NCBI RefSeq assembly: GCF_002234675.1
Contig: NC_019877.2
Coordinates: forward strand, 403,001 to 467,000
Source of the DNA: Oryzias latipes
Taxonomy: Eukaryota; Chordata; Actinopteri; Beloniformes; Adrianichthyidae
Direction: 5' to 3'
Length of the DNA: 64,000 nt
Part shown: positions 15,901 through 63,527 of the stretch, piece after piece
Position numbering within the stretch: position 1 is the stretch's first letter
Layout: every line of letters starts with the position of its first letter
Notes under the pieces: generated by a model
Databases searched by the model: none
What the model was told of the DNA's origin: nothing
What the model saw: only the letters and a program-made list of their open reading frames with translations
Translations under genes and position numbers: made by a program

Positions 15901-18900
15901 GTGTTCTCGCAGAAGTGGGTCATTATCTCAGGACACCCCCCCCATCCTCTCAGAGAGGACTGTCAGACCTGAGATGTTCCGGATGGTGTGAAGAATCCAA
16001 ACAGGAAGTGTCTGATCTTCAACCATAACTGCTTCAGCTGCTAGCAGGTTTTTCTTTCAAGGTTTTTTCTGGATCCTAAACAGCTGGAACAGGCTGTGGT
16101 CTACAGCATCTTTGTCAGAAGACAGCCAGAGCAGAACCCGTCTGCCAGAGCAGAACCCGTCTGCCAGAGCAGAACCCGTCTGCCAGAGCAGAACCCGTCT
16201 GCCAGAGCAGAACCCGTCTGCCAGAGCAGAACCCGTCTGCCAGAGCAGAACCCGTCTGTCACCTTGCTGTGGAAGCTGCTGCTGGTTTTGGCCACGGCGC
16301 ACTGGCGGTCCACCAGGAAGCAGTACCGCCTCCTCTCCTCGGACAGAGCGTTCTTGTAGCCCTCTGCGATGTAGTTGTCCAGCTCGCTCTGCTTGTTGCT
16401 GATGGCCTCCACGTACTGGAAGAAGAGAAGATGGACAGTCAGACCAACAGTTTTCTAGAAACATCTTTGGATCCTTAAGTCTGTGACGGCAGGAGTTCAT
16501 CAGAAGCAGCTTCAGTCGTCAGCGCTGATGAACAAACAGGTTTTAGCCTGAGGGATTCAGCTGAAGTCCCACCTGAAACCAGATTTCGCTGCTCCACAGA
16601 AACGGCCTCAAATGACCCGTTAAAGGAAGTGAAGTCTCTTCACGCCGCAGCGTTTTCACTGTCACACATGAAGCAACACCAGGAGCGACAGTCCGGATCC
16701 GGATCAGGCCTTCCTTCCCTCAAACGTCTGGATCCTTCCATGTAGAAACATCTGAGTGATTTCTAATCTTGTCGCTGCACTAAAAGCACTGGACTCCATC
16801 ATTAGTCTGCCCCTCTCAAGGCAGCAAAGACTTCTGGGAGGATTGCAGCGCCGCGACATAGAACACGTTCTCCTCATCCCCTCCACTTCAGTTTAGAAAG
16901 AGTGAAGAACTCAGAACCAAAACAAATCCAGAAGATTATCTCATGCACACATAAACGTGACTAAGGGGGCGGAGTTATGGAGTTAGGATCTGTTGTGGAG
17001 TTGGGATTTGCAGGATTCTGGGGGGAGGAACTCATTTTGGTGAGAAGATGAACTCTATCATTTCCAGATCTCACCAGAATTCATTACATTTATTGGTTCT
17101 GTTGTGAATCATGACCACGCCCCTCCTGAACCCTTTAAATTTTCCATGAAATGTTGTAAAATTTCAACAGTTTACACAATTGTATAAAGAGTTGCAATAA
17201 TTGAAATGACGGAGCTTGACTCCCATTAACGTCGGAGCTTCGTGATGAGTTAAAGTGTCACCATGGCAACCGTAAAGCTTCCATGGCACCAGAATGTCCA
17301 CGTCATCCAAATATAAAACAAGAAAACTGTCTCTGGTTTCAGACGATGGCGCCCTCCAGAGATCAACTTGAACAAAGTTTTTCTTAAACTAAACATTTCA
17401 GAAAAAGCTCCACAGGAAGAACTGAAGAACTCGTTTCTTAGTTTCCCTGAGTTTGGCTGAAGACGGAACCACAGAAGCTGACTCTGCCTCCATCCTTCAT
17501 GCATCTCGCTGACATGGAGCCAGCTCAGATCTTCAGTCAATCACTGCCTTCAAGGAAACTGAAGTCCAGAATTCCCTGGAAGCTGTCAGCGGATGAAAGC
17601 AGAGATCAGAGCAAAGCTCCTGGAAACATCTGAAGATGAAGAGACCTGCAGCTTCACGCCAGTTCTCTTTATTGCATTTCTGCGGACATGAAAGGAGGAG
17701 CTCGCCGCCTCCATCTTCAGGAGGACAGAGACCGATGGGGAGGGGGGCGGCGGCATGGAGTGTTATTAAATACAAACAGGATTTCTGGATGAAGAAGCTG
17801 TTCTGTTGGGTTTGAGGTTTTCTTTAGTGAAACTTCATTTTCATGTCCTTTTCCTGAGAAGATTCACATTTTTACGACTTTTCAAAAGATTCAGTTATGG
17901 AGATGAACCTGAGAGACTCTCCTCCATTTTCTTTGTCAGTTTACAATTTAGCCTCCATGTTTGTGGACAAAAGTTTCCATTTATTTAGTTTTAATATCAG
18001 TTTTATTTGATTGTTTTGATCTTAGAATGTGTTGCTGCAAAGAAGGAAAAGTTAAAAGAAGAATCTTAGTTTACTTGTTGAAGTTGGATGTTTGGCGTCG
18101 GAGGACGGATGTTCTACTCTGACAGTTTTTTTGCGTTTCATATATTTTTTTATTAGAAGTTTGACATTTTTTGTCGGAAAAACACAACGACTAAGAAACT
18201 GTTACGACTCTGGCTGCATGAAGTGGGTTTTGGCCTGAAGCCTTAACACGAAGGGCACCACAGTCAGAGGCCCCGCCCCCTTCTGCGTTTCCCGTCAGTA
18301 ATGGAGCAAACCACACGGGGCCCCTGGCCCCGCCCTGCCTGTGGCCCCTACAGGCGGCAGAGCCGACACCCACCTGCATCTCCTTGTCTCCGTACTTGGA
18401 CGGGTGTTTGCTGCCCTGGCTCTTCCGGCGCAGCTTCTTCAGCTCCGCCTGGCTCTTCTCCAGACTCTCCCCTTTGCTCTTGTGCTCCGTCTGGTACTTC
18501 TTGAGCGCCGCCTGGTGGGGGGGGGGCAGTACAGACATTCAGTTCTGCCGGCAGAATGTTGGAGCTTCTCCGTTTCTCCCTCAGACTCTTACGTTCAGGT
18601 AGCGGGCGTCCAGCTCCACCTTCTTCTCCAGCTCCGTCAGCAGCTCGTTGTGGAACGATTTCAGCTGAAGGGAAAATGAAAAAACCTGTTCAGGAAAGTT
18701 TGACGTGATCCAGATTCAATCCTGAAACAGAAGTGAAGACTCTGCTCCTCCTCCTCCTCCTCCAATAACAAAGCTGCTTCTGTTTGTCTCCCTCCCGACT
18801 CCTCCATGGTCACTTTCAGGACTCGGACTAAACCAAAACCTCCTTCTTGGTCCGTTTGGATCATGTGACCTTCTTGTGGTTTTTCATTTTTGGTTCAGGA

Positions 18901-47866: not shown

Positions 47867-50345
47867 CTACATGGCCAGCATCTCTGGCTCCGCCTTCTTC
47901 CTCGGACGCTCCCGCTCTGAAACAGACAGACGTGTCACGTGAGGACGGGAGTCCTGTCAGTGGTCAAGCACGGCGGTGGAGGTGGAGCGATGTGGGCCGC
48001 AGGTCTTTACCGCTCACGTTTTTATTGTTACAGAAAACGATTTCCGTCAAGATTTGGTCCGTTTACCGTCCAATCTAGACTTTTTTTGTTTTTAAAATTG
48101 TTTCTTTTTAATTGAGATTAAAAAGAAACAATTGCTGATTTTTATAAACATTTATAAAACACTAAAAAATCTGCACGCCACTTACACGAGCGAGCTTGGC
48201 ACGCAAACGCCGTTCAAAACCCACAAAACCTCATTTCCAACATCTTGAAGCTGCTCTGGGAGGCGATAGACGGTAATCTGTAGGTTGTACTAAAGGTGAT
48301 GCTCAGTGGAAAAGGTCAAAGGTCAAAACCATGGTAGTGGTTGTACACACACCTGTCAATCTTCCTGAAAGAAACATTTTCTTTTACCCTATTGAGGGAA
48401 AATGTGAAAAATCTACAAATTTGCCCACAAAAGACCTTCGGGACCTGTGGCCATCCCATAATAATGTCAAACCTTCCTCTGGATGTCCTTGATGTGTGTG
48501 TTTTAAATTCTGAGGGGATTTTCAAACTTCTTTTGAGATTTTGGCCCCGTTGATTTTTTCGGGATGGCCGACTTTGCCCAAATTTCATTTTCGCTGCGTC
48601 TAAATGTTGGTGAGTTTTTCTCCATGAAGTCCATTTGCTGGTTCTGTTCCCGTCCAGAACCAAAAACCTTCCAGCTGGTTCCGACAGGAAGTTCCCAGAA
48701 AAGTTTCTCAGAGAATCGCTGACCTCCTTTCCGCTCGGGAGCTTCAGGCAGCTGCTCCGCAGGAACGTCTGGAAGCTCCACGTCTCCCTGAGAGGAACGG
48801 ATCAGAACCCATGTGAAGACCAGAGCGCCACCTGCGGGTCTGGCTGGAGCGTTTCCTCCAGAACCCACCTGAGTGATGGCCTCCAGCTCAGCCAGAACGG
48901 CGTCCTCGTCCTCCTGAGTCAGCGCGCCGGCGAGCATCTCGTCGATTTGCTGCACAGACCACAGAGGTTAAAAGGCGGGACACTCGGACCCGACCCTCAG
49001 GTCCAAACCCGGAGGCCTTACCCGCTGGTACTCCACAGCGTCCTGGGTTTCATCCATGATCCGCTCCACCTCTTCGATGGACATCACCTGCAGCGAGGAA
49101 CAGCTGATCAGCGCTCTGCGTCAGAACCTGCAGCTCACCTGGCCGCCGCGTGGCGCCGCTCACCTCGTGCATCTTCTTCAGACACTCGTTTCCGACCTTC
49201 AACCCTTCCAGAACCTTCTTCTCTATCTGAGCGAACTCCAGATCCTGGACCTGTAAGGCAGCAGGAAGGAGGCGGGTCAGCATTCCTCTTCAAACAACGG
49301 CGCCACGCCGCCGCCGGTACTCACCATCCGCTCCAGGTTGCTGATCTGGTTCTCCGTCTTTTCCAGGAGCTGGTCCTGGTACCGCTTCTTCTTCAGCAGG
49401 AGGAGAGCTTTCCTGTTGAGGTCAAGAGAAGGAAAACAGCTGAAATCTGCTCCCACACCGGTTTGTCCGTGTTCAGCCATGCCGCAGAACCGGTTCTTAC
49501 TCCTTCTTGCCGTCCTGGAGCAGCGTCTTGGCCAGCCGCCGCTCCCTGTCCAGATGCAGGCGGATCTTCTTCTGGTACTGCCTCAGCTTATCTCGCTGCT
49601 GCTTCAGTTGCTGAGGAGAAACGTGGAAGTGTGAGAAGCTGGAGGACCGGCGGACCCTCCCGCCAAGAAAAAACACCCCACCCCCCCAGAAATAACCAAC
49701 AAGACAAGTTTACAGATCAAATCAATGATGTTTACATTAGAACTACAAAAAAAACGCACCAAAATCTGAGATCTATTAGTAAATTTATGAAAAACATGGT
49801 TTAAACTGTCCAAATAAACGCAGTTGTGCTGAAACGAATGGAAACAGTTTATTTTCGAAATTACTTCATTTCCCAGAAGTCCCCGCAACGCAGTGACTAG
49901 TAAGTGAAGGTTCAAGGGTGAAAGCAAATCCGAGATGTCACTACAAGGACCGAGTTCGGTGCCAGCCCGGACCTGGATCAGACCGACACCCCCCGCCTCC
50001 ACTGTCCCCCTCAGGGACCAGCTTCAGCGGCCGGAAACTCCACCGAACCGCGAACACGTAAAGAAAGCAGACAGTCCGAATCTGGACGCCTCTAATCTGG
50101 GTTTATGATAAAAAAAAATACGTTATTTATCTCATTTAATAAATCCTGATTCCTGAAACTGTGATGTTTGTTTTTGTCTGCACCCAGTATGACTAACAGA
50201 ATTCAGCGCAGTTCTGTTCCGGCTCAGATTTCCGTTTGGGTTCGGCTGCTAGCATTAGCCGGACCTGCTAGCTAGCTCCTACCAAAATGGCTTTGTCCTG
50301 CTCCGTCACGCGGGACTGCTTCTTCTTTCCGAACAGATTTCCCAT
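47867..50345 (-). CDS. chmp6: Charged multivesicular body protein 6 (ESCRT-III), complete gene
   Basis: ESCRT-III subunit that links ESCRT-II (VPS25) to CHMP4 on endosomes and helps membrane scission. Exons by splice site: 50345-50283, 49610-49501, 49412-49325, 49250-49164, 49087-49022, 48949-48869, 48787-48724, 47916-47867. All phases agree, giving 202 residues, the usual size. It starts MGNLFGKKKQSRVTEQDKAI; Gly2 fits the known N-myristoylation. The helical core follows (KQQRDKLRQYQKKIRLHLDR; LLLKKKRYQDQLLEKTENQI), then MSIEEVERIMDETQDAVEYQ, IDEMLAGALTQEDEDAVLAE and the tail GDVELPDVPAEQLPEAPERK before KKAEPEMLAM. The first intron is 672 bp and the others 49-947 bp. The large plus-strand open frame at 48635-49804 is its antisense shadow. 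Confidence 0.97.
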
Positions 50346-50827
50346 CCTGACACAGCATTCCAGCTCCCAGCCGCGGAGGAACCCGAAACCCGGTCAACAT
50401 GAAACTATTTCCAGCTGCTCAGCCTTCATCCTCCGGGTACTTTGTCATCGTCCACACCCACAGCAGGAAGGACGGTGGCCCGGAGCGAACAAACCCGTCT
50501 GCGCGAAACGATGTGTTTGCTTTCTAATCATCAGATTTAGCTCATATTCCGTTAGTTGTTTATTTGTGATGCAAACTTCACGGAACCTTTCATAATATTG
50601 GCCATCTAGTGGTCAAAACGGCCGAACCAAATTGATCAAATCATTGCTATTGCAGTTACTTCCGGTGTTATTTCCGGTTGTTCCTTTCAAACAAAAACAT
50701 GATAGAAAATAACAATGATTGCTGATCTGTTTTCTTCTAATCTTAAATGATTTAATTCTAGGAATGAGAGTTTTGTTTAATCTAACTTTTAAATAAGGGT
50801 TTTATTCATGCTTTTATGTTGGCTCCT
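50346..50827. other. chmp6 5' flank
   Basis: The GC-richer first 150 bases probably contain the chmp6 promoter, but I see no TATA box. From about 50,520 on it is AT-rich and plain. Confidence 0.4.
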
Positions 50828-51794
50828 GGATGGATGGATGGATGTTCAGATGAATGGATGGATGGGTGGATGGATGGATGACGGATGGATGGATGGATGG
50901 ATGACGGATGGATGGATGACGGATGGATGGATGTATGATGGATGGATGGATGGATGGATGGATGGATGACGGATGGATGGATGGATGATGGATGGATGGA
51001 TGGATGGATGGAAGCATGGATGGATGGATGGACGGATGGATGGATGGATGACGGATGGATGGATGGATGGATGGATGAAAGATGGATGGATGGATTATGG
51101 ATGGATGATGGATGGATGTTCAGATGAATGGATGGATGGGTGGATGGATGGATGACGGATGGATGGATGGATGGATGGAAGCATGGATGGATGGATGGAC
51201 GGATGGATGGATGGATGACGGATGGATGGATGGATGACGGATGGATGGATGGATGGATGGATGACGGATGGATGGATGGATGACGGATGGAAAGATGGAT
51301 GGATGGATGGATGGATGACGGATGGATGGATGGATGTTCAGATGAATGGATGGAAAGATGGATGGATGGATGACGGATGGATGGATGACGGATGGATGGA
51401 TGTATGATGGATGGATGGATGGATGGATGGATGACGGATGGATGGATGGATGATGGATGGATGGATGGATGGATGGAAGCATGGATGGATGGATGGACGG
51501 ATGGATGGATGGATGACGGATGGATGGATGGATGACGGATGGATGGATGGATGGATGGATGACGGATGGATGGATGGATGATGGATGGATGGATGGATGG
51601 ATGGAAGCATGGATGGATGGATGGACGGATGGATGGATGGATGACGGATGGATGGATGGATGGATGGATGAAAGATGGATGGATGGATTATGGATGGATG
51701 ATGGATGGATGTTCAGATGAATAGATGGATGGGTGGATGGATGGATGACGGATGGATGGATGGATGATGGATGGATGGATGGAAGCATGGATGG

Positions 51795-51829
<35 letters not shown>

Positions 51830-52714
51830 ACGGATGGATGGATGGATGACGGATGGAAAGATGGATGGATGGATGGATGGATGACGGATGGATGGATGGA
51901 TGTTCAGATGAATGGATGGAAAGATGGATGGATGGATGACGGATGGATGGATGACGGATGGATGGATGTATGATGGATGGATGGATGGATGGATGGATGG
52001 ATGGATGACGGATGGATGGATGGATGGATGATGGATGACGGATGGATGGATGGATGGATGGATGACGGATGGATGGATGGATGGATGATGGATGGATGGA
52101 TGGATGGATGGAAGCATGGATGGATGGATGGACGGATGGATGGATGGATGACGGATGGATGGATGGATGACGGATGGATGGATGGATGGATGGATGAAAG
52201 ATGGATGGATGGATTATGGATGGATGATGGATGGATGTTCAGATGAATGGATGGATGGGTGGATGGATGGATGACGGATGGATGGATGGATGATGGATGG
52301 ATGGATGGATGGATGGAAGCATGGATGGATGGATGGACGGATGGATGGATGGATGACGGATGGATGGATGGATGACGGATGGATGGATGGATGGATGGAT
52401 GGATGACGGATGGATGGATGGATGACGGATGGAAAGATGGATGGATGGATGACGGATGGATGGATGGATGTTCAGATGAATGGATGGAAAGATGGATGGA
52501 TGACGGATGGATGGATGACGGATGGATGGATGTATGATGGATGGATGGATGGATGGATGGATGGATGGATGGATGGATGACGGATGGATGGATGGATGTT
52601 CAGATGAATGGATGGAAAGATGGATGGATGACGGATGGATGGATGACGGATGGATGGATGTATGATGGATGGATGGATGGATGGATGGATGGATGGATGG
52701 ATGACGGATGGATG
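50828..52714. repeat. 1.9-kb (GGAT)n satellite with higher-order structure
   Basis: Tetranucleotide GGAT throughout, punctuated by gatgacgg, gatgatgg, gaagcatgg, gaaagatgg and gttcagatgaatgg variants. Blocks recur: gttcagatgaatggatgggt-type at about 50845, 51118, 51711 (one change) and 52237, and gttcagatgaatggaaagat-type at about 51336, 51906, 52471 and 52599. This indicates duplication of units of roughly 500-600 bases. All open frames in it (repeats of M-D-G-W or H-P-S-I) are artefacts. Confidence 0.95.
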
Positions 52715-53341: not shown

Positions 53342-53348
53342 TTTATTA
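53342..53348 (-). terminator. Polyadenylation signal overlapping the TBP-like stop codon
   Basis: The minus strand reads CCCACTTAATAAAG. The stop TAA (53348-53346) shares two bases with AATAAA (53347-53342). If used, the 3' UTR would be only about 15-30 bases. Confidence 0.45.
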
Positions 53349-56300
53349 AGTGGGACTCAAAAGATCCCATTTGTCCTGCCGGAAGACTTTCAGGACTGGG
53401 TACATCAGCTGTAGAAGTTCTTTGCATGCTTTAGGAGAAGACAATCCTGAACAGAGAAACAAAAACAGCGGTTAGACTTTCATAGATTTGTTAAAGTCAG
53501 GACAATAAGATCTGAGATGAATCCAGAAAAGCAGCTGAAAGCTTCAAAACTGAACAATCCCTCAGAAATCCCAATGAAAAGTTCAGAACATCCAGATGAA
53601 TGGGATTGATGGGTTTATATCACTGAAGAAGCAGAATATTCTTTAAAACTATCTGTTTAGTAAGTAATAATAATATTAATACATTTTATTTAGAGAGTAA
53701 ATAGGATCCCGTTAGCAGACAGATCCACCCGGTTGGATCGATGAAAATCAATCCATTCATGGATTAATCGTTACACTTCTGGTAAAAACAACTGGAAAAA
53801 ATAGATGAAACTTTGACTAAAATGTGTAAATATTAGAATTGTGTTTAGGTGGAGGGGCTGCAGGTTTGATTCCCACAGTGCAGACGAGCGTCGCTCCGTT
53901 ACCCATTATGATGACGGTCCCATTCCGATGGATGGAGGCAAAGCCGCCAGGACTCTTCCTGAGGAAAACCGCAGGATTCAACTCGGGTTCAAAACTGAGG
54001 AAGAAGAAGACGAATCAGAGAGGAAGCAGAGGAACGAGCGACAGTGAGGGCAGATGTTTGAAGAGGGGCGGAGTCCAGAACAGTTCTGACCCGCAGCCCT
54101 GCTGGACCCACGGACCTGTGGAGCGTAACAAACACGCCAACATCCACACAAACCGTGATGACATCACAGCGTAAATCCACTAAGACGCCAAAACACGCGT
54201 GTCCAGAGGAAGTTTTGAAACTATTATGGGATGACCTACGGCAAGTCAAAGTGTGAAACGTGTTGATTTTTACGTTTTCACACAAAAGTTTGTGAGAACA
54301 AAATTTGAGCGACTTTCACTAAATTTCACAAACGTTCCACCAGCTTAACTCCACAACGACGTTTTGTTGACCTTTGACCTCCAGAAGAGGCAGCCGCGCT
54401 GCAGGGCATGCGGACCCACCTTACTATGGGATGGTGTGTTTCCAGGTGAATCAGAGCTCACCTCAGCCGGGGCAGCATGTCAATTATAAACAGCATGGGT
54501 CCTGGAACTGGGCCCTGTGGGACTCCGTAGCTAACTGGAGTGCAGTGAGAGGACGGTCCATGAACAAACTGGTGCCTATCTGATACATTATTTTGTTGCT
54601 ATGAGAAAAGAACCTCCTCACACCCTCAGGTTCTGCAGAACCTGAGGGTGTGAGGAGCCGGGTTCTTTGAAAGCTGTGGCGCCGCTGGAGGGGGTGAAGT
54701 CAGACCTGAAGCCCTGCGGGTTGGACCGGGTCAGCCCTTCCAGGTTCAGGCAGAAAGTTTTGACCATGCAGACGCAGTTGATGACACGGAAGTTCAGGAA
54801 GCGGACGGGGAACCCGGCCTTCTGCAGGATCCGGGCGTGTCTCCTCGCCGCTTGGCGGGACTCCTCGATGCTGTGTGGGGGGAAAAAGATGAGACTTCCT
54901 GCGGTGATGTCCACAGTTCTGGAACTGGACCGGCACACACCTGCAGGCTGCGGTGCAGATCATCTTCCCCGTACTGTAAATGTTGGCGGTGGTTCTGGGT
55001 TTCCGGATCCGCATGATGAGGCCTGTGTAGGTCTGAAGCACAACAACGAGTTGAGGGCGGGGCCTGGAGGGCGGGGCCTGGAGGGCGGGCCAGCAGGCCG
55101 GCGGTGGGTTCTGGTACCTTAGGGTTGTACTGGGTGTTCCACAAGGCTTTACCAATGGCTCCCAGGTCCAGTCTGCAGCCCAGATCCACCACCGACACCA
55201 CGTTCCTGCAGAACAGAACCGCGTCAGGGCAGAGTGGCAGCCGAGCTGCAGGACATGCTGACCCACTTTATCTGGAGGGGGGGCAGCTCGTCGGAGCTGT
55301 TGTTTCCAGGCGAATCAGAGGTCATCCCGGCCGGGCGCGGCCCCCTTTCAGGATTGGGTGGGCGGTGGGGGTTGCAGCCTCCTTAAAAACACAAAGAAGT
55401 GAAGACGCAGGTTGGGTTTGACTGCTGACGCCTTCATGCAACCATCAATGAAAGATGAAGAAATGTCTTCATCACCCCCCCCCCCCCCCCCCCCAACACA
55501 CAGAGACAGGAAACGTCCCACTGACCCCCCCAGGAGGAAGAATCATAAAGACATCCACCAAAATACTGCCTTCATGTCACGCAGACGGTCACATGACTTT
55601 TTCACCAGGTGGTTTTCAAAGCAGCGTCCTTTCAAAGTAAGAGCGTGTCTTCATGAAGAAAACGGACAGGAAATATTAAAACCATTCAAAACAGACGCAC
55701 ATGCAGCAGATTTTTTCCATCTGTGTAGAAACTAACAGCAACACATTTATCACAACCTTTTTCTTTCAAATCCTCAGAGTCTGTTTCTGAAATGACGTTT
55801 TCTCACTCAAATATCTCCTTAAATGCCTTATAGAGTCAGATTTTTCCAAAGTTTCCTCCATTAAAGGGAAATTATTCCAAACATTTAAATGTATAATTAA
55901 CAGAAGTGAATTTAGCGTTTGCTCCATGATCTTTATATCTGAGATTTGCTTCATCAAGCAGGAACGTTCAGCTACAGAACCAGATGTTCTGGATCTTTGA
56001 GGAACCGGCTTCACTGATGCTCACCCGTTTTGTTCTGACCCGGGACCTGCGGCTGACCTTCGCGGCGCTCCTCCTCTTTCTCCTCTTCCTCCTTCACCTT
56101 TGGACCGGCCTGCAGACACAGATCTGTGAGTGAGACCGCTCCACGGACTCTTTAGCAACATCCTCTCCAGAGCTTCTGTCTGCAGCCTCCACAGAACCTC
56201 TGAGTCCAGAAGACGGATCAGAACCAGAAGCACAAGCCCGTCAGAGCCTCCCCCTGCTCACGCAGACTCACAACCAGCAACACTCCAACCACAAAGGACC

Positions 56301-56846
56301 TTCTGGGCTCCTCAGTGGGAGCATCTCAGACTCTACAGGCCTCAGTTTGGATGTCCGACCACCAAACCCACAGAACCGTCTGGGTCCAAAAGACACAGTC
56401 ATGTCAGCCGGCAGCCACAGGAAGTGCAGGCGCTCCGTTCTCACGTTTTCCACAAAAAGCTGGTAGAAGCGCTCTAAGGCGTGGTCGTCCATGGGGTAGG
56501 AGGCGTCAAAGCGGGTTTCCGTCATGCCGGATAAAGACTATCAGGTTTTTTCTCAGCTTCAGCTCGAAAGTTCAACTGTTACCAGAGTCTGTTTACGGTC
56601 AAAAGGATTCTGTCGCTAAGAGACGAGGAATCGAACTAAAACACATCTGAGGTTTGAGTTTTCATCAGGAATGTTCAGAAATCCCAGAGGAAAGAGGATG
56701 CAGCCGTCTGATTTGTTCCTGAACACTAAGCTGAACAATGCAAACGTTCTTCAGTTCCAGCAGCTTTAAAATGAAGAAAACCAAAACATAAAGAGTGGAG
56801 CATCAACCTGAGGCTCCGGGGCCGCTGGTGGCTCCTCGTCCTCCAT
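53346..56846 (-). CDS. Divergent TATA-binding-protein-like factor, complete nine-exon gene
   Basis: Predicted nuclear DNA-binding protein of the TBP family, about 277 residues. Exons: 56846-56808, 56537-56445, 56109-56058, 55381-55267, 55205-55118, 55032-54941, 54870-54706, 53994-53903, 53446-53346; every junction keeps phase. The N-terminus (MEDEEPPAAPEPQ, then an acidic/basic stretch with VKEEEEKEEERRE) is unlike TBP. The core starts PPLQIKNVVSVVDLGCRLDL and continues NTQYNPK, LIMRIRKPRTTANIYSTGKM, ESRQAARRHARILQKAGF, LNFRVINCVC, LNLEGL, SFEPELNPAVF and YPVLKVFRQ. Each block aligns with TBP in order, and the exon cuts fall between the same blocks as I recall for vertebrate TBP. By eye the first repeat is near 59 percent identical to TBP and the second far less. 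TBPL1-like features are few (PELxPAV). The first three exons are the least certain. Confidence 0.85.
54389..54473 (-). pseudogene. Decayed partial copy of TBP-like exon 4 and its donor site
   Basis: The minus strand has gctctgattcacctggaaac and then aaggtgggtccgcatgccct and gcagcgcggctgcc. These match exon 4 plus the start of intron 4 of the same gene at 55335-55233 (cctctgattcgcctggaaac, aaagtgggtcagcatgtcct, gcagctcggctgcc). A gap of about 17 bases and several changes separate them. It lies in intron 7, between exons 7 and 8, and has no obvious acceptor. Confidence 0.65.
54614..54657. repeat. 44-bp perfect palindrome
   Basis: ctcctcacaccctcaggttc, then tgca, then its exact reverse complement gaacctgagggtgtgaggag. 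With a 3-base bulge the hairpin extends outward to aaagaacc (from 54607) and gggttcttt (to about 54669). It lies in intron 7 of the TBP-like gene. Confidence 0.95.
55476..55495. repeat. Poly-C tract in TBP-like intron 3
   Basis: About 20 C in a row after catca, about 95 bases upstream (on the minus strand) of exon 4. Confidence 0.85.
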
Positions 56847-57923: not shown

Positions 57924-58533
57924 TTAAATCTTGCGGTCCTTGAATCCAGGACGCTCATGAGGCGCAGGCAGAGGAATGTGCCCAAAGGTATCCTGGGAGT
58001 ATTTGGCGTCGGAGCTGGAGTCCCTCGCACGCTGGTAGCCGTTGTTGGACTTGGCCACATAGGACGAAGGGTAGAGGGGGCGCTCCCCCACCATGCCCAG
58101 AGGCACGTGGGCAGAGGTCCAGGCCAAGCGTGGGAAGGGGCGGCCGGGACGGAGACGCCACGCGTTGGCGATGATGCGGCCGGCCTCAGCGTCCCGCCCG
58201 CTGCCATCAGGAGACTTTCCACCAGCACTCATGGAGCTGGACCCAACAGAACCAGGATCCCCGCCAGAGTAGCCGGGCCGCGGGTCGTAGAGTGGAGCTG
58301 AACCGCGCTGACCTGGAATGACCTTCTGATACTGAAGCACATTTAAGCAGCAAGAGAGAAACGCTGCAGGAAAAAACAAAACTCACCTTTCCTCAGAGAA
58401 CTCCCAGCACAGCTGAAGAGCACGAAGACGACCAAGATCCTGGTTCCACAAAGAAACATCAAACACTAAAATAAAAGCACATCCTACCAAAATAAAAGCC
58501 AACTAGTCACCTGAAAGCCCCGTGGAGCAGCAT
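57924..58533 (-). CDS. Small predicted secreted protein, unrecognised
   Basis: Three exons: 58533-58511, 58439-58387, 58312-57924, with introns of 71 and 74 bases and consistent phase. The protein is about 154 residues. It begins MLLHGAFRILVVFVLFSCAG, a typical signal peptide, with cleavage likely after CAG or SSLRK. The mature part has no cysteine. It is rich in G, S, P and R, for example APLYDPRPGYSGGDPG, IIANAWRLRPGRPFPRLAW and GERPLYPSSYVAKSNNGYQ, and ends HERPGFKDRKI. It could be an extracellular matrix or hormone-like precursor, but no canonical amidation signal is clear and I do not recognise the family. An AATTTAAA at 58592-58599 may serve as a TATA-like element. Two small GT-AG introns in phase make a chance frame unlikely. 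Confidence 0.65.
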
Positions 58534-58691
58534 CTTCAGAGCAGCCTGAGTGAAGGAGCTTTGAGCAGAACTTCCTGTCTGTCTGCAGCTGAATTTAAAG
58601 TCTGACATCAGACCAACGAGCTTCACCTGGGCTCACGGTGCCTTCAGGTTCCCCTGGAAACGGAGGATCTTATAGGTTTGTCTCCATAGAG

Positions 58692-59822
58692 CAGGGGTCG
58701 GGAACCTAAGGCTCGCGAGCCATATATGGCTCTTTTGATGGTCACATGTGGCTCGCAGACAAATCTTTAATTCAAATTTTTTTTCTTCATTAGACCAGTC
58801 CTTCTCGTGCGCGATGCGATGGCAGAGGCGCGCAGTAGTAGCGGTGCTTAGAGAGACAAATCTGCGCCAGCACTAGTATAAGTTTAAAATTGTCTATTAA
58901 TTCACAGAGTTTGTACCACCCGGAAACCTGTGAATTGCCGTGCCTAAAACTGCGCGCTCCCGTCTCTGAGAAAGAGCGCGCAGATGCGGGGACGGGATGT
59001 GTGAGGGAGAAAGCAGAGGGTGGGGCTGAGGTGTTGTGGGGACAGGCAGCAGGTGAATCGCGCAGGGATTGTAAATAGGTAAAACCCACTGCCTGTCACT
59101 CACTGCAGCGTGTGAGTGTGTGTTTGGCTCCAGGTCCGCATGTGAGCAGTCTGTCTCACATCTACAAAACATTCATACCAACCTAAGATCACGTTTAAAG
59201 TCTCAACGCCTGCATGAAGCAGAAACTCACCACGTAAACCAGACTAGACCATCAGCAAAACTACCACGAGAAATACTCATCATTTATTAGAAACAGCATA
59301 ACAATGTTATTAAAAAGAATCCACAGACTTATTGTACTTTAAAAAGGTTGAAATTACATCAAATGCACACATTCACTTGTATTTTAGTTTTAAACATATT
59401 GTCGCGGACTGAGTTGGGTGGCTGTTGGGCCGCGTTAAAAGTTCTGGAGTTCATTGACCGCATCAAGCAGAGAGCTGATTGGCTCTCAGTTCTGTCGCTC
59501 AGCCTGTTGTTAGGTAGTTTGGACCAATGGGGTTCAGCTATGGGCCGAATAAGGGAAAGGGGAGGGCTGCAGCGGGAGCAGGGGAATATAAAGTTGGGAG
59601 ACGCGCTCTCGTCTCGGCGGGAGAGATTCAGGAGTTGCTGAATTAATTGTTCGGCGTTTGTCGCGGTCTGCAGTAACCCGAATAAAGAACCTTAAAAGAG
59701 GTTAAGTCTCCGTGCCTCAGTGTGGGAAAGGGACACTACATTATTGTATGGCTCTTTCGAAATTACATTTCAAAATATGTGGCGTTTATGGCTCTCTTGG
59801 CCAAAAAGGTTCCCGACCCCTG
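58692..59822. mobile_element. Non-autonomous hAT element with perfect 8-bp target duplication
   Basis: Ends caggggtcgggaacc and ggttcccgacccctg are exact inverted repeats. The next bases (taaggctcgcgagccatata; gagccataaacgccac) are the familiar fish hAT subterminal motif. The flanks are ccatagag at 58684-58691 and 59823-59830. No transposase frame is seen. A solo LTR (59400-59740) is nested inside. Confidence 0.92.
59400..59740 (+). mobile_element. Solo LTR of an LTR retrotransposon
   Basis: The 341-bp block runs from tgtcgcggactg to gggacactaca (TG...CA). It has a CCAAT box (ggaccaatgg), a TATA box (gaatataaag) and an AATAAA before a GT-rich tail, which is the U3-R-U5 order. The flanks atat and ttat would be a 4-bp target duplication with one change. 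No internal region or second LTR is present. Confidence 0.75.
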
Positions 59823-60951: not shown

Positions 60952-63527
60952 GTAAGAGGCTTTTCTAACTGTGTGTCTCCATGCAGGTGAGGCAGGAGAA
61001 GCTCCCACCTCCTGCCTCACCTCCTCTTCATCTCCAGAGTGGAGCTGGATCCTCCTCGTCTTTGTCCTCTCCCTCATGTCGTTTCAACTCCTCCTCTCTG
61101 TCCACCTCCCCTTTTTACTCCTCACATCTTCATCGATCTTCTCGCTTCAACCTGATTCTTTCCAAAATCTGGAAGAACCGTCGTTAGACGTCAGCAGGAG
61201 GAAGAGGAGGGGAGCTGTGAGGAGCAGAGGAGGTCAGAGAAGATCCGGAAGCTCCAGACTGAACCGGTGGACCGGTAGAGGAAATGAAACATGGATCAGA
61301 ACCATGAGGGGCGGCTCTGTCTCATCCCTTATTCGGTGACATGCGATGCAGAGTGTTTGGAGGAGGCGGGGCCTTTGGGGCCGTGGGGGCCTTCAGGGTG
61401 GTGGGGGGTCTTCAGAAACGTTGACTCCTCCTCTGAAGGAAGGAACAGGTTGAGACCACCAACAGAACCAGAGGCTCGGTCCGGACGACGCCTCCGGCTG
61501 CAGCTGTGGATGAGAAGAAGAGGAGGAGGAGGGGTCTCCGGGGAGGAAGTGAGGAAGGCCCCCTCCAGAGACATTCTGGTTCTGAGCGTTTTGGCTGCTT
61601 GGCCTCTCAGGGGGTGCGGGTCCGGTTGCAGGTGGGAGGGGTTTGGTGGGTGTGAGGGTCTGATCCGGATCGCTTCAGAACTCCCAAAGCATCAGGTCAC
61701 AGGTGAGAAGGAGGGGCTGGAGCTTAGCTCCTCCCACATAGGGAGGAAAAGGTCATTTCCTGGATCCTTTGAAAATAAAATCCATGATTTGATCTTTTCT
61801 GGAGGAGGAAGAGGAGGAGCTCGGTGAATCGAGAGCTTCATCTCATCCTCAGCCTGGGAGGTTCCGCTTCTCCTCCTCAGCATCCACGGATCAGCATCCT
61901 CAGCTTTATTCTGAAGCTCCACCCCGGAAGTGGAGTGCGTGCGCGTTTTCAGCTGCGTGACGTGGAAAGGTGACAGGAACAATAGCTGATCGCGCGCGCG
62001 TGACCGCATCAATCCACTGATACAGATCGATCAGGATGTCCTTCCCGCCCAAGAAGAGCAGCTCCCGCCCCGCGGTAAGTCGAACCGGACCGGGACTGGG
62101 AGGAGCGGCCGCGTGCCGGGATGCTGCAGCTCCGCCCGTCCGTCTGCCGCCTCGCCGGAAACGGGCCGAACCGATCCGTGCAGGGCGGCAGCTGCGCGGG
62201 TCTGAGGGGGAAAGAAGGTTCTGCAGGGGTGATCCGGTCCACTGCGTGCTGCGTTCAGGGACGCTCAGTCAGCGGAATCTGGGTCAGCCGCGGATCAGGT
62301 GGAGCCGGCAGAACTTCAGAGTACCCGAACCGAACCTTCACCTCAGTGTCTGAGTCAGACTTCGGTGTCGAACCGAATCCCGTTTTAGTCCAGTTCCAAA
62401 GATGGAGGTTAAACCGATTCAATAAAAACAGAATCCAACTTTATTCAGAGGTTCTCATACATACCCGTCCAGAACCGCTCCAGAACTGGTCTGAAGTTTA
62501 ATCAGTGATAATAATCAATGTGTTTGATTTTAAACCTGCAACCATAATTCTGGATCAGCTGATCCGGATCCGCTGCTGTCAGAACTGCAGACTGGTCCTG
62601 GGGCGTGTCAGTTTGGAGGAACCTAGCATCCTCTGCTCCTGTAGCAACACCAGAACCAGGCCTGGTTCTGACTGCGGTACCGAGAGCTTAAACACGATAC
62701 AGGGGAAAAAATCAGGATAAAGTGACTATAGTTGAAACATTTGCTGCTCAGCAGGTCAGAAGCTCTTTGACTTCACGTGAACTGGGTTTTTGGAGCATCT
62801 GGTTCTGGTCCACTGAACTGGACCTCTACTGCATTCATCAGAGCAGCTGATGCAGAGAACCAGAACCCTGCAGGGTTCTCCTCCACCTCCACAGCCTTTG
62901 AGCGGGTTCTGCTCCTGATTGACCCAGAATCCTCCGTCTGTTTCCAGGGCGACCGTCTGATCATCAAGGGAGGGAAGATCGTCAACGACGACCAGTCGTT
63001 CTACGCCGACGTCTTCGTGGAGGACGGGACCATCAAGTAGGCGTGGCCTCCTGCCGTCATCGGGGCGTCGGCTGGAGTGTCTGAGCTTCTCTTTGTGCCT
63101 CGCAGGCAGATCGGGGAGAATCTGATCGTCCCGCCTGGCGTGAAGACGGTGGACGCCTACGGTCAGCTGGTCATCCCCGGAGGAATCGACGCCAACACCA
63201 ACCTGCACACCCCGCAGAAGGGGATGAGCCCGGTGGACGGCTTCTACCAGGGAACCAGGGCGGCGCTCTCCGGAGGAACCACCACCATCAGTGAGTGGTC
63301 ATCCGCCCGTCGCCACGCGTCCGCGTGACGGCGGGATCGCTGACCAGCGCTCGTCTCCGCAGTGGACCACGTGCTGGTGGAGCCGGGAAGCAGCTTACTG
63401 GCTGTGTTCGATCAGATGAAGGAGACGGCGGAGCAGACGGCGTGCTGCGACTTCTCCCTGCACCTGGACATCGCCCGCTGGCACGACGGGCTCTCCGAGG
63501 AGCTGGAGACGCTGGTCAAAGACAAAG
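60643..63527 (+). CDS. CRMP/DPYSL-family protein, 5' part (gene continues past the right end)
   Basis: Cytosolic phosphoprotein family that binds tubulin and guides axon growth; related to dihydropyrimidinase but not enzymatic. Two first exons, 60643-60951 (long form) and 62036-62074 (short form), both end in phase 0 and can join exon 62948-63036, then 63106-63290 and 63363-63527. The shared part reads [81 protein letters not shown] and [20 protein letters not shown]. The HxH metal site of true dihydropyrimidinase is NTN here, as expected for a CRMP. By eye it is closest to CRMP1 with some DPYSL4-like residues, so no symbol is given. The next exon (expected to begin with VNSF) is not found before 64000. 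Confidence 0.9.
60952..62035 (+). other. Region between the two CRMP first exons
   Basis: GC-rich intronic and promoter DNA. The open frames at 60971-61339 and 61291-61827 have no recognisable domain. Confidence 0.5.
62036..62074 (+). CDS. Short-form first exon of the CRMP gene
   Basis: Reads [13 protein letters not shown] and ends at gtaagt. Ordinary CRMP short forms start MSYQGKK or MSFQGKK followed by a PRITS-like stretch, so this N-terminus is recognisable but altered. Upstream DNA (61930-62035) is CpG-rich with an alternating cgcgcgcg stretch and a TGACGTGG CRE-like site, fitting a second promoter. Confidence 0.8.

Follow-up and report, generated by a model that had tools for sequence, protein, structure and literature searches.

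Vertebrates have been described as possessing three TBP-type factors, TBP, TLF and TBP2 (PMC3142196), and a second account counts three TBP-type members in most invertebrate and vertebrate genomes (PMC7221094). Of the three, only TLF is reported to be unable to bind TATA, although it does interact with TFIIA and TFIIB (PMC3142196). In TBP, an alanine mutation of the N-lobe phenylalanine F116 (F116A, yeast and human proteins) reduces DNA binding; F305A, E284R and E286R lower transcription in vitro, the last two in a manner consistent with TFIIB contact; and R235E and R239S abolish basal transcription (PMC7221094). Our search of the literature found no report of a fourth vertebrate TBP; a gene of that kind may go by another name or be annotated in a database.

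Here we describe a TBP-like gene, which we call the C19 gene, on the minus strand (positions 56846..53346) of a 64,000-nucleotide stretch of the medaka (Oryzias latipes) genome. This stretch, C19:403001-467000, is referred to as the window. An original prediction made from the window held that the gene is a TBP-family member distinct from TBP, TBPL1 and TBPL2.

Gene Structure and Setting

The predicted nine exons, with consistent GT-AG sites and phase, proved sound. Each of the eight introns has a GT donor and an AG acceptor (16 of 16 splice dinucleotides intact), the phases are compatible, and joining the exons in silico yields 870 nt including the stop, or 289 aa without an internal stop, with a two-lobed TBP core at the C-terminal end (Table 1). 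The beginning of the gene is less certain. Exon 1 may be 5′ UTR, or no exon at all, and the start codon could be either the ATG at 56525 or the one at 56492, which would correspond to that of TBPL2.

Table 1. Features of the C19 gene and of the surrounding window (window coordinates)
Feature	Position	Strand	Remarks
Putative exon 1	56808..56846	-	MEDEEPPAAPEPQ; GT donor; frame and splice site only, no homology support
Exon 2	56445..56537	-	Contains MDDHALERFYQLFVEN, ATG at 56492; resembles first exon of TBPL2 (MDESALERYFDESIIH)
Exon 3	56025..56109	-	Acidic (KVKEEEEKEEER); entered in phase 0 and left in phase 1; supported by frame and splice sites only
Exon 4	55267..55381	-	3′ end LPPLQIK; donor phase 2, two codons past LQ|N of TBP/TBPL2; 3′ part supported by phmmer alignment, 5′ part by frame and splice sites only
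Exon 5	55118..55205	-	NVVSVVDLGCRLDLGAIGKALWNTQYNPK; 88 nt, equal to TBP and TBPL2
Exon 6	54941..55032	-	TYTGLIMRIRKPRTTANIYSTGKMICTAAC; 92 nt, equal to TBP and TBPL2; F197Y, F214Y
Exon 7	54706..54870	-	SIEESRQAARRHARILQKAGFPVRF...NPQGF; 165 nt (168 in TBP/TBPL2)
Exon 8	53903..53994	-	FEPELNPAVFLRKSPGGFASIHRNGTVIIMG; 92 nt (95 in TBP/TBPL2); EPEL retained; F288N, F305H
Exon 9	53346..53446	-	LSSPKACKELLQLMYPVLKVFRQDKWDLLSPT and stop; C-terminal extension
AATAAA polyadenylation-type hexamer	53342..53347	-	Overlaps stop codon of the C19 gene
Partial near-copy of exon 4	54386-54471		In exon 7-8 intron; 3′ half of exon 4, donor and adjoining intron
Dispersed repeat	54470-54560		Beside the near-copy; reverse-transcriptase-like reading (YGVPQGPVPGPMLF)
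Simple-repeat array	~50806-52710		Long, GGAT-type; separates chmp6 from the C19 gene
Snf7 matches	48506-48967, 49280-49582	-	Both below Pfam cut-off
IMD matches	16104-16454, 18194-18538	-	Above Pfam cut-off
Gene-like stretch	57924-58540	-	Signal-peptide-like start by eye; ORF ending PHERPGFKDRKI; ORF 57924-58382 without Pfam match at E 0.01
Element with inverted ends	58692-59822		~1.1 kb; caggggtcgggaacc / ggttcccgacccctg; looks like a non-autonomous DNA transposon
ORF	63041-63325	+	By eye, a dihydropyrimidinase-like reading; without Pfam match at E 0.01

Two neighbours on the same strand as the C19 gene look, from their Snf7 and IMD matches, like chmp6 and baiap2, respectively. Within the gene, the near-copy agrees with exon 4 and its donor in two blocks (33/38 and 30/35 bases), and we read it as a probable local duplication. 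Exon 4 was also considered as a dispersed repeat and rejected: when its region was used to search the genome it returned only itself, a result that excludes close copies only, the near-copy itself having been missed. The adjacent dispersed repeat has 840 candidate places genome-wide, of which 40 were scored.

Four TBP-Family Loci in One Genome

That the gene encodes a TBP-type core, as originally proposed, is borne out by Pfam TBP (PF00352), which matches the product at E 5.5e-38 in two stretches covering both lobes and so places it in the TBP family. Of the solved sequences, 35 were listed as matches, and human TBP heads them (E 1.7e-43, residues 91-280). A PF00352 search of the medaka genome itself (734,051,031 bases, 25 contigs), which a more diverged TBP locus could escape, gave 10 matching stretches from 14 candidates at 4 loci, three stretches each on C3, C22 and C24 and one at the C19 gene. 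Viral contigs gave no match. Gene models were built for the other three loci, and the names were assigned here by comparing the models and their cores: TBP on C3 (305 aa, eight coding exons), TBPL2 on C22 (352 aa, seven coding exons) and TBPL1 on C24 (187 aa, six coding exons). Because TBP, TBPL1 and TBPL2 each have a locus of their own elsewhere in this genome, the C19 gene is a fourth TBP-family locus of medaka, present besides one of each known kind.

Its core is identical to that of medaka TBP at 79 of 177 positions and to that of TBPL2 at 80 of 176 (45%), and to that of TBPL1 at 65 of 179 (36%). For comparison, the medaka TBP and TBPL2 cores agree at 164 of 178 positions (92%), and human and medaka TBP at all 177 aligned positions. 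The N-lobe of the C19 product has stayed closer to TBP (49/88 identical) than its C-lobe has (30/89; p 0.004), and medaka TBPL1 follows the same trend (41/87 and 29/90; p 0.047).

Origin of the C19 Gene

All five core introns have the phase found in TBP and TBPL2; four of them also agree in codon position, the fifth, at LQ|N, falling two codons later (LQIK|N). Length changes within the core are in-frame only. Medaka TBPL1 is arranged differently: it has an extra intron at GFK|V, absent from the C19 gene, and lacks the LQ|N intron; its first-helix intron and both second-lobe introns coincide, and the one after NPK is shifted by about two codons. The exon containing MDDHALERFYQLFVEN and the first exon of TBPL2 each comprise 16 codons and end in a phase-0 donor. 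Their BLOSUM score is 32 (shuffle p 0.0004), against 6 for TBP (p 0.047), in a comparison that uses one TBPL2, that of medaka, and represents TBP by 16 codons, the first of the 17 in its exon. Since the core intron phases and positions and the TBPL2-like first exon agree, and the TBPL1 intron is absent, the gene most likely derives from the TBP/TBPL2 stem, and probably from TBPL2. The original claim of distinctness from TBP, TBPL1 and TBPL2 thus stands for the separate locus; the stronger statement, that the gene fits none of the three, does not find support in that form, since the introns and the first homologous exon set it on the TBP/TBPL2 side, most probably with TBPL2.

Trees of the core, proposed with the prediction as a check on whether the gene falls among ordinary TBPL1 or TBPL2 sequences, do not resolve its origin. 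In a ten-row tree, three rows of which are provisional (human TBPL1 among them), the C19 branch measures 2.5 changes per site and is best placed beside the two TBPL1 rows, with support 62/84. The data do not reject a grouping with medaka TBPL2 (p-AU 0.276-0.279); they do reject one in which the gene pairs with medaka TBPL1 to the exclusion of human TBPL1 (p-AU 0.005). In an eight-row tree without TBPL1 the gene stands beside medaka TBPL2 with support 39/16 and a branch length of 10, inside a vertebrate TBP/TBPL2 group supported 70/84; groupings with TBP (p-AU 0.171) and with yeast and plant TBP (0.185) are not rejected.

The placement beside TBPL1 raises the possibility that the C19 gene is related to TBPL1 as its sister or through an ancient duplication, that its TBPL1-like residues were inherited, and that, like TBPL1, it acts on TATA-less promoters. 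The residues themselves lend this some weight. Of 75 informative sites, at which both the C19 product and TBPL1 have departed from TBP, 15 show the same residue in the two, where BLOSUM exchangeability predicts 7.0 (Poisson p 0.006); with TBPL2 in place of TBP as the starting point, the count is 13 against 6.8 (p 0.02). We nevertheless regard descent from TBPL1 as unlikely. Identity is lower to TBPL1 than to TBP or TBPL2, the gene has an N-terminal region and, among its introns, one near LQ|N and none at GFK|V, and the weakly supported placement joins two long branches, which attract. In addition, the score of the C19 product drops from human TBP (149.7 bits) through plant (135-136) to yeast (126-131), whereas medaka TBPL1 scores plant and human TBP nearly alike (141 and 137). 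We read the shared TBPL1 residues as probable convergence after loss of the TATA constraint, with inheritance as the alternative.

A second alternative keeps the gene on the TBP/TBPL2 side and makes it older: a product of vertebrate whole-genome duplication, of the age of the TBP/TBPL2 split, retained in medaka and lost in mammals. In its favour, two exons lie between the first exon and the core, with phases 0-1-2, in the C19 gene as in TBP (TBPL2 has one), and synonymous sites are near saturation with the paralogues. The chromosomal setting makes so old an origin improbable, the neighbours being apparently chmp6 and baiap2, and we know of no orthologue of the gene. When ORFs of the window were compared by tblastn with ~30 kb around TBPL2 and ~30 kb around TBP, no shared neighbour gene was recognised among the best 40 rows, which comprised TBP itself and otherwise matches taken for repeats, not each of them identified. 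In teleosts, tbpl2 is reported to neighbour dact1 (PMC4236578).

Rates, Constraint and Intactness

The protein has changed rapidly. By the NG86 method dN to TBPL2 is 0.55 and dS ~1.4, the latter lowered because high GC3 is common to both genes (0.73 in the C19 gene, 0.79 in TBPL2); against TBP the method reaches saturation. On their own branches dN is ~0.51 for the C19 gene and ~0.04 for TBPL2. Synonymous dating was tried and gave no firm date: the C19 gene and TBPL2 have identical codons at 41 of 78 sites, against 34.0 and 37.6 expected (p 0.06, 0.14), and we distrust the test because the old pair TBP-TBPL1 comes out significant (32/69, p 0.009 and 0.004).

Such a rate could also mean that the gene is a recently silenced or relaxed TBPL2 duplicate, its frame intact in appearance and its function gone, on the way to becoming a pseudogene. 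The pattern of retention would suit that history, showing no clear preference for conserved sites: of 132 positions that do not vary among the TBPs of human, medaka, yeast and Arabidopsis the gene keeps 66, and of 39 that do vary it keeps 15 (p 0.27). Third codon positions differ from TBPL2 more often than second positions (94 versus 62 of 176, p 0.0009), and this is no proof of constraint on the C19 gene, because the TBPL2 branch alone could produce such an excess. We think a dying gene a poor explanation all the same. The dS to TBPL2 implies ample time for decay, yet the 289 codons are stop-free and the splice sites and reading frame of the core are undamaged. When the TBPL2 core was allowed to decay neutrally, counting stops only and leaving indels out, it accumulated a mean of 4.4 stops at K 0.35 (48% identity, 16 of 2000 runs stop-free) and 6.1 at K 0.7 (26% identity, 4 of 2000); at K 1.4 identity fell to 12% and none of 2000 runs was stop-free. 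Since neutral runs are so rarely stop-free and the real core has no stop at 45% identity, a long-dead copy is unlikely. Chance assembly or a retrocopy, the latter already set aside in the original prediction, is ruled out by nine exons with the intron phases of TBP and TBPL2.

Residues of the Saddle

All four intercalating phenylalanines are replaced in the C19 product, two in the N-lobe (F197Y, F214Y, human numbering) and two in the C-lobe (F288N, F305H); medaka TBPL2 retains four of four and medaka TBPL1 one of four. The EPEL loop that contacts TFIIB is retained (E284, E286, L287), as are the N-lobe arginines R231, R235 and R239. On a list of 22 DNA-contact positions, which is approximate because position 211 (Ala in human TBP) misfits the residue listed, the C19 product keeps 11, seven out of 11 in the N-lobe and four out of 11 in the C-lobe; medaka TBPL1 keeps five in each lobe, and medaka TBPL2 keeps all 22. 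Of four positions taken to contact TFIIA, only half are conserved (N189 and R205, as opposed to A184 and E191), which tells against the reading offered below.

Discussion

Gene structure, homology, residue changes and the separate locus are direct results; what the protein does, with which partners and in which tissue, we infer from them. We put at roughly one in two the probability that the C19 gene is an intact, protein-coding fourth TBP paralogue that arose on the TBP/TBPL2 side, underwent fast protein change, and adopted a TATA-free mode of action. The duplication would have taken place at the DNA level, with the introns kept, and most probably in a TBPL2-type gene. The change that followed would have produced a saddle without the four TATA-kinking phenylalanines, with the EPEL loop and the three arginines left in place. 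A protein of this kind could recruit TFIIB, and perhaps TFIIA, at TATA-less promoters; alternatively, it could compete for TFIIB and TFIIA. Either action might be confined to one tissue, for example the germ line, a use suggested by one hint, the habits of TBPL1 and TBPL2. The C19 protein and TBPL1 likely work in a similar way, and the simplest reading is that a TLF-like mode of working would have been reached from a TBPL2-like start. Whether the gene represents a wider class is a more doubtful matter; we offer only tentatively the idea of a conserved fourth vertebrate TBP class in some ray-finned fishes, TBPL2-derived, TATA-independent and convergent on TBPL1, with a germ-cell promoter programme of its own.

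If the gene is as we read it, it would be a natural separation-of-function variant, with the DNA-kinking residues gone and the TFIIB loop kept, in a core whose sequence is otherwise strongly conserved between yeast and man. Because medaka is bred in the laboratory, the need for the gene in germ cells and the promoters that it serves are directly testable.

The known factors can be set against the C19 gene one by one. TBP has the same two-lobed core, the same core intron phases and the same number of exons between first exon and core; it differs in its near-invariant core, to which the C19 core is 45% identical, and in the vertebrate poly-Q N-terminus, of which the C19 gene has none. TBPL1 (TLF, TRF2) resembles the C19 gene in having lost TATA-kinking phenylalanines (three of four in medaka) while keeping the TFIIB loop EPEL, and in some shared residues. 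Medaka TBPL1, however, has no N-terminal domain, an intron at GFK|V and Trp at 214, whereas the C19 gene has an N-terminal region, an intron near LQ|N and none at GFK|V, Tyr at 214 and a core only 36% identical. TBPL2 (TBP2, TRF3) has in common with the C19 gene an N-terminal extension, the core intron phases, 45% core identity and, in the comparison with medaka TBPL2 alone, a similar first coding exon of the same 16-codon length and phase. The medaka TBPL2 core is 92% identical to TBP and retains every listed DNA contact; the C19 gene, by contrast, has changed over half of its core, has lost the four phenylalanines and has its N-terminal part split in two exons.
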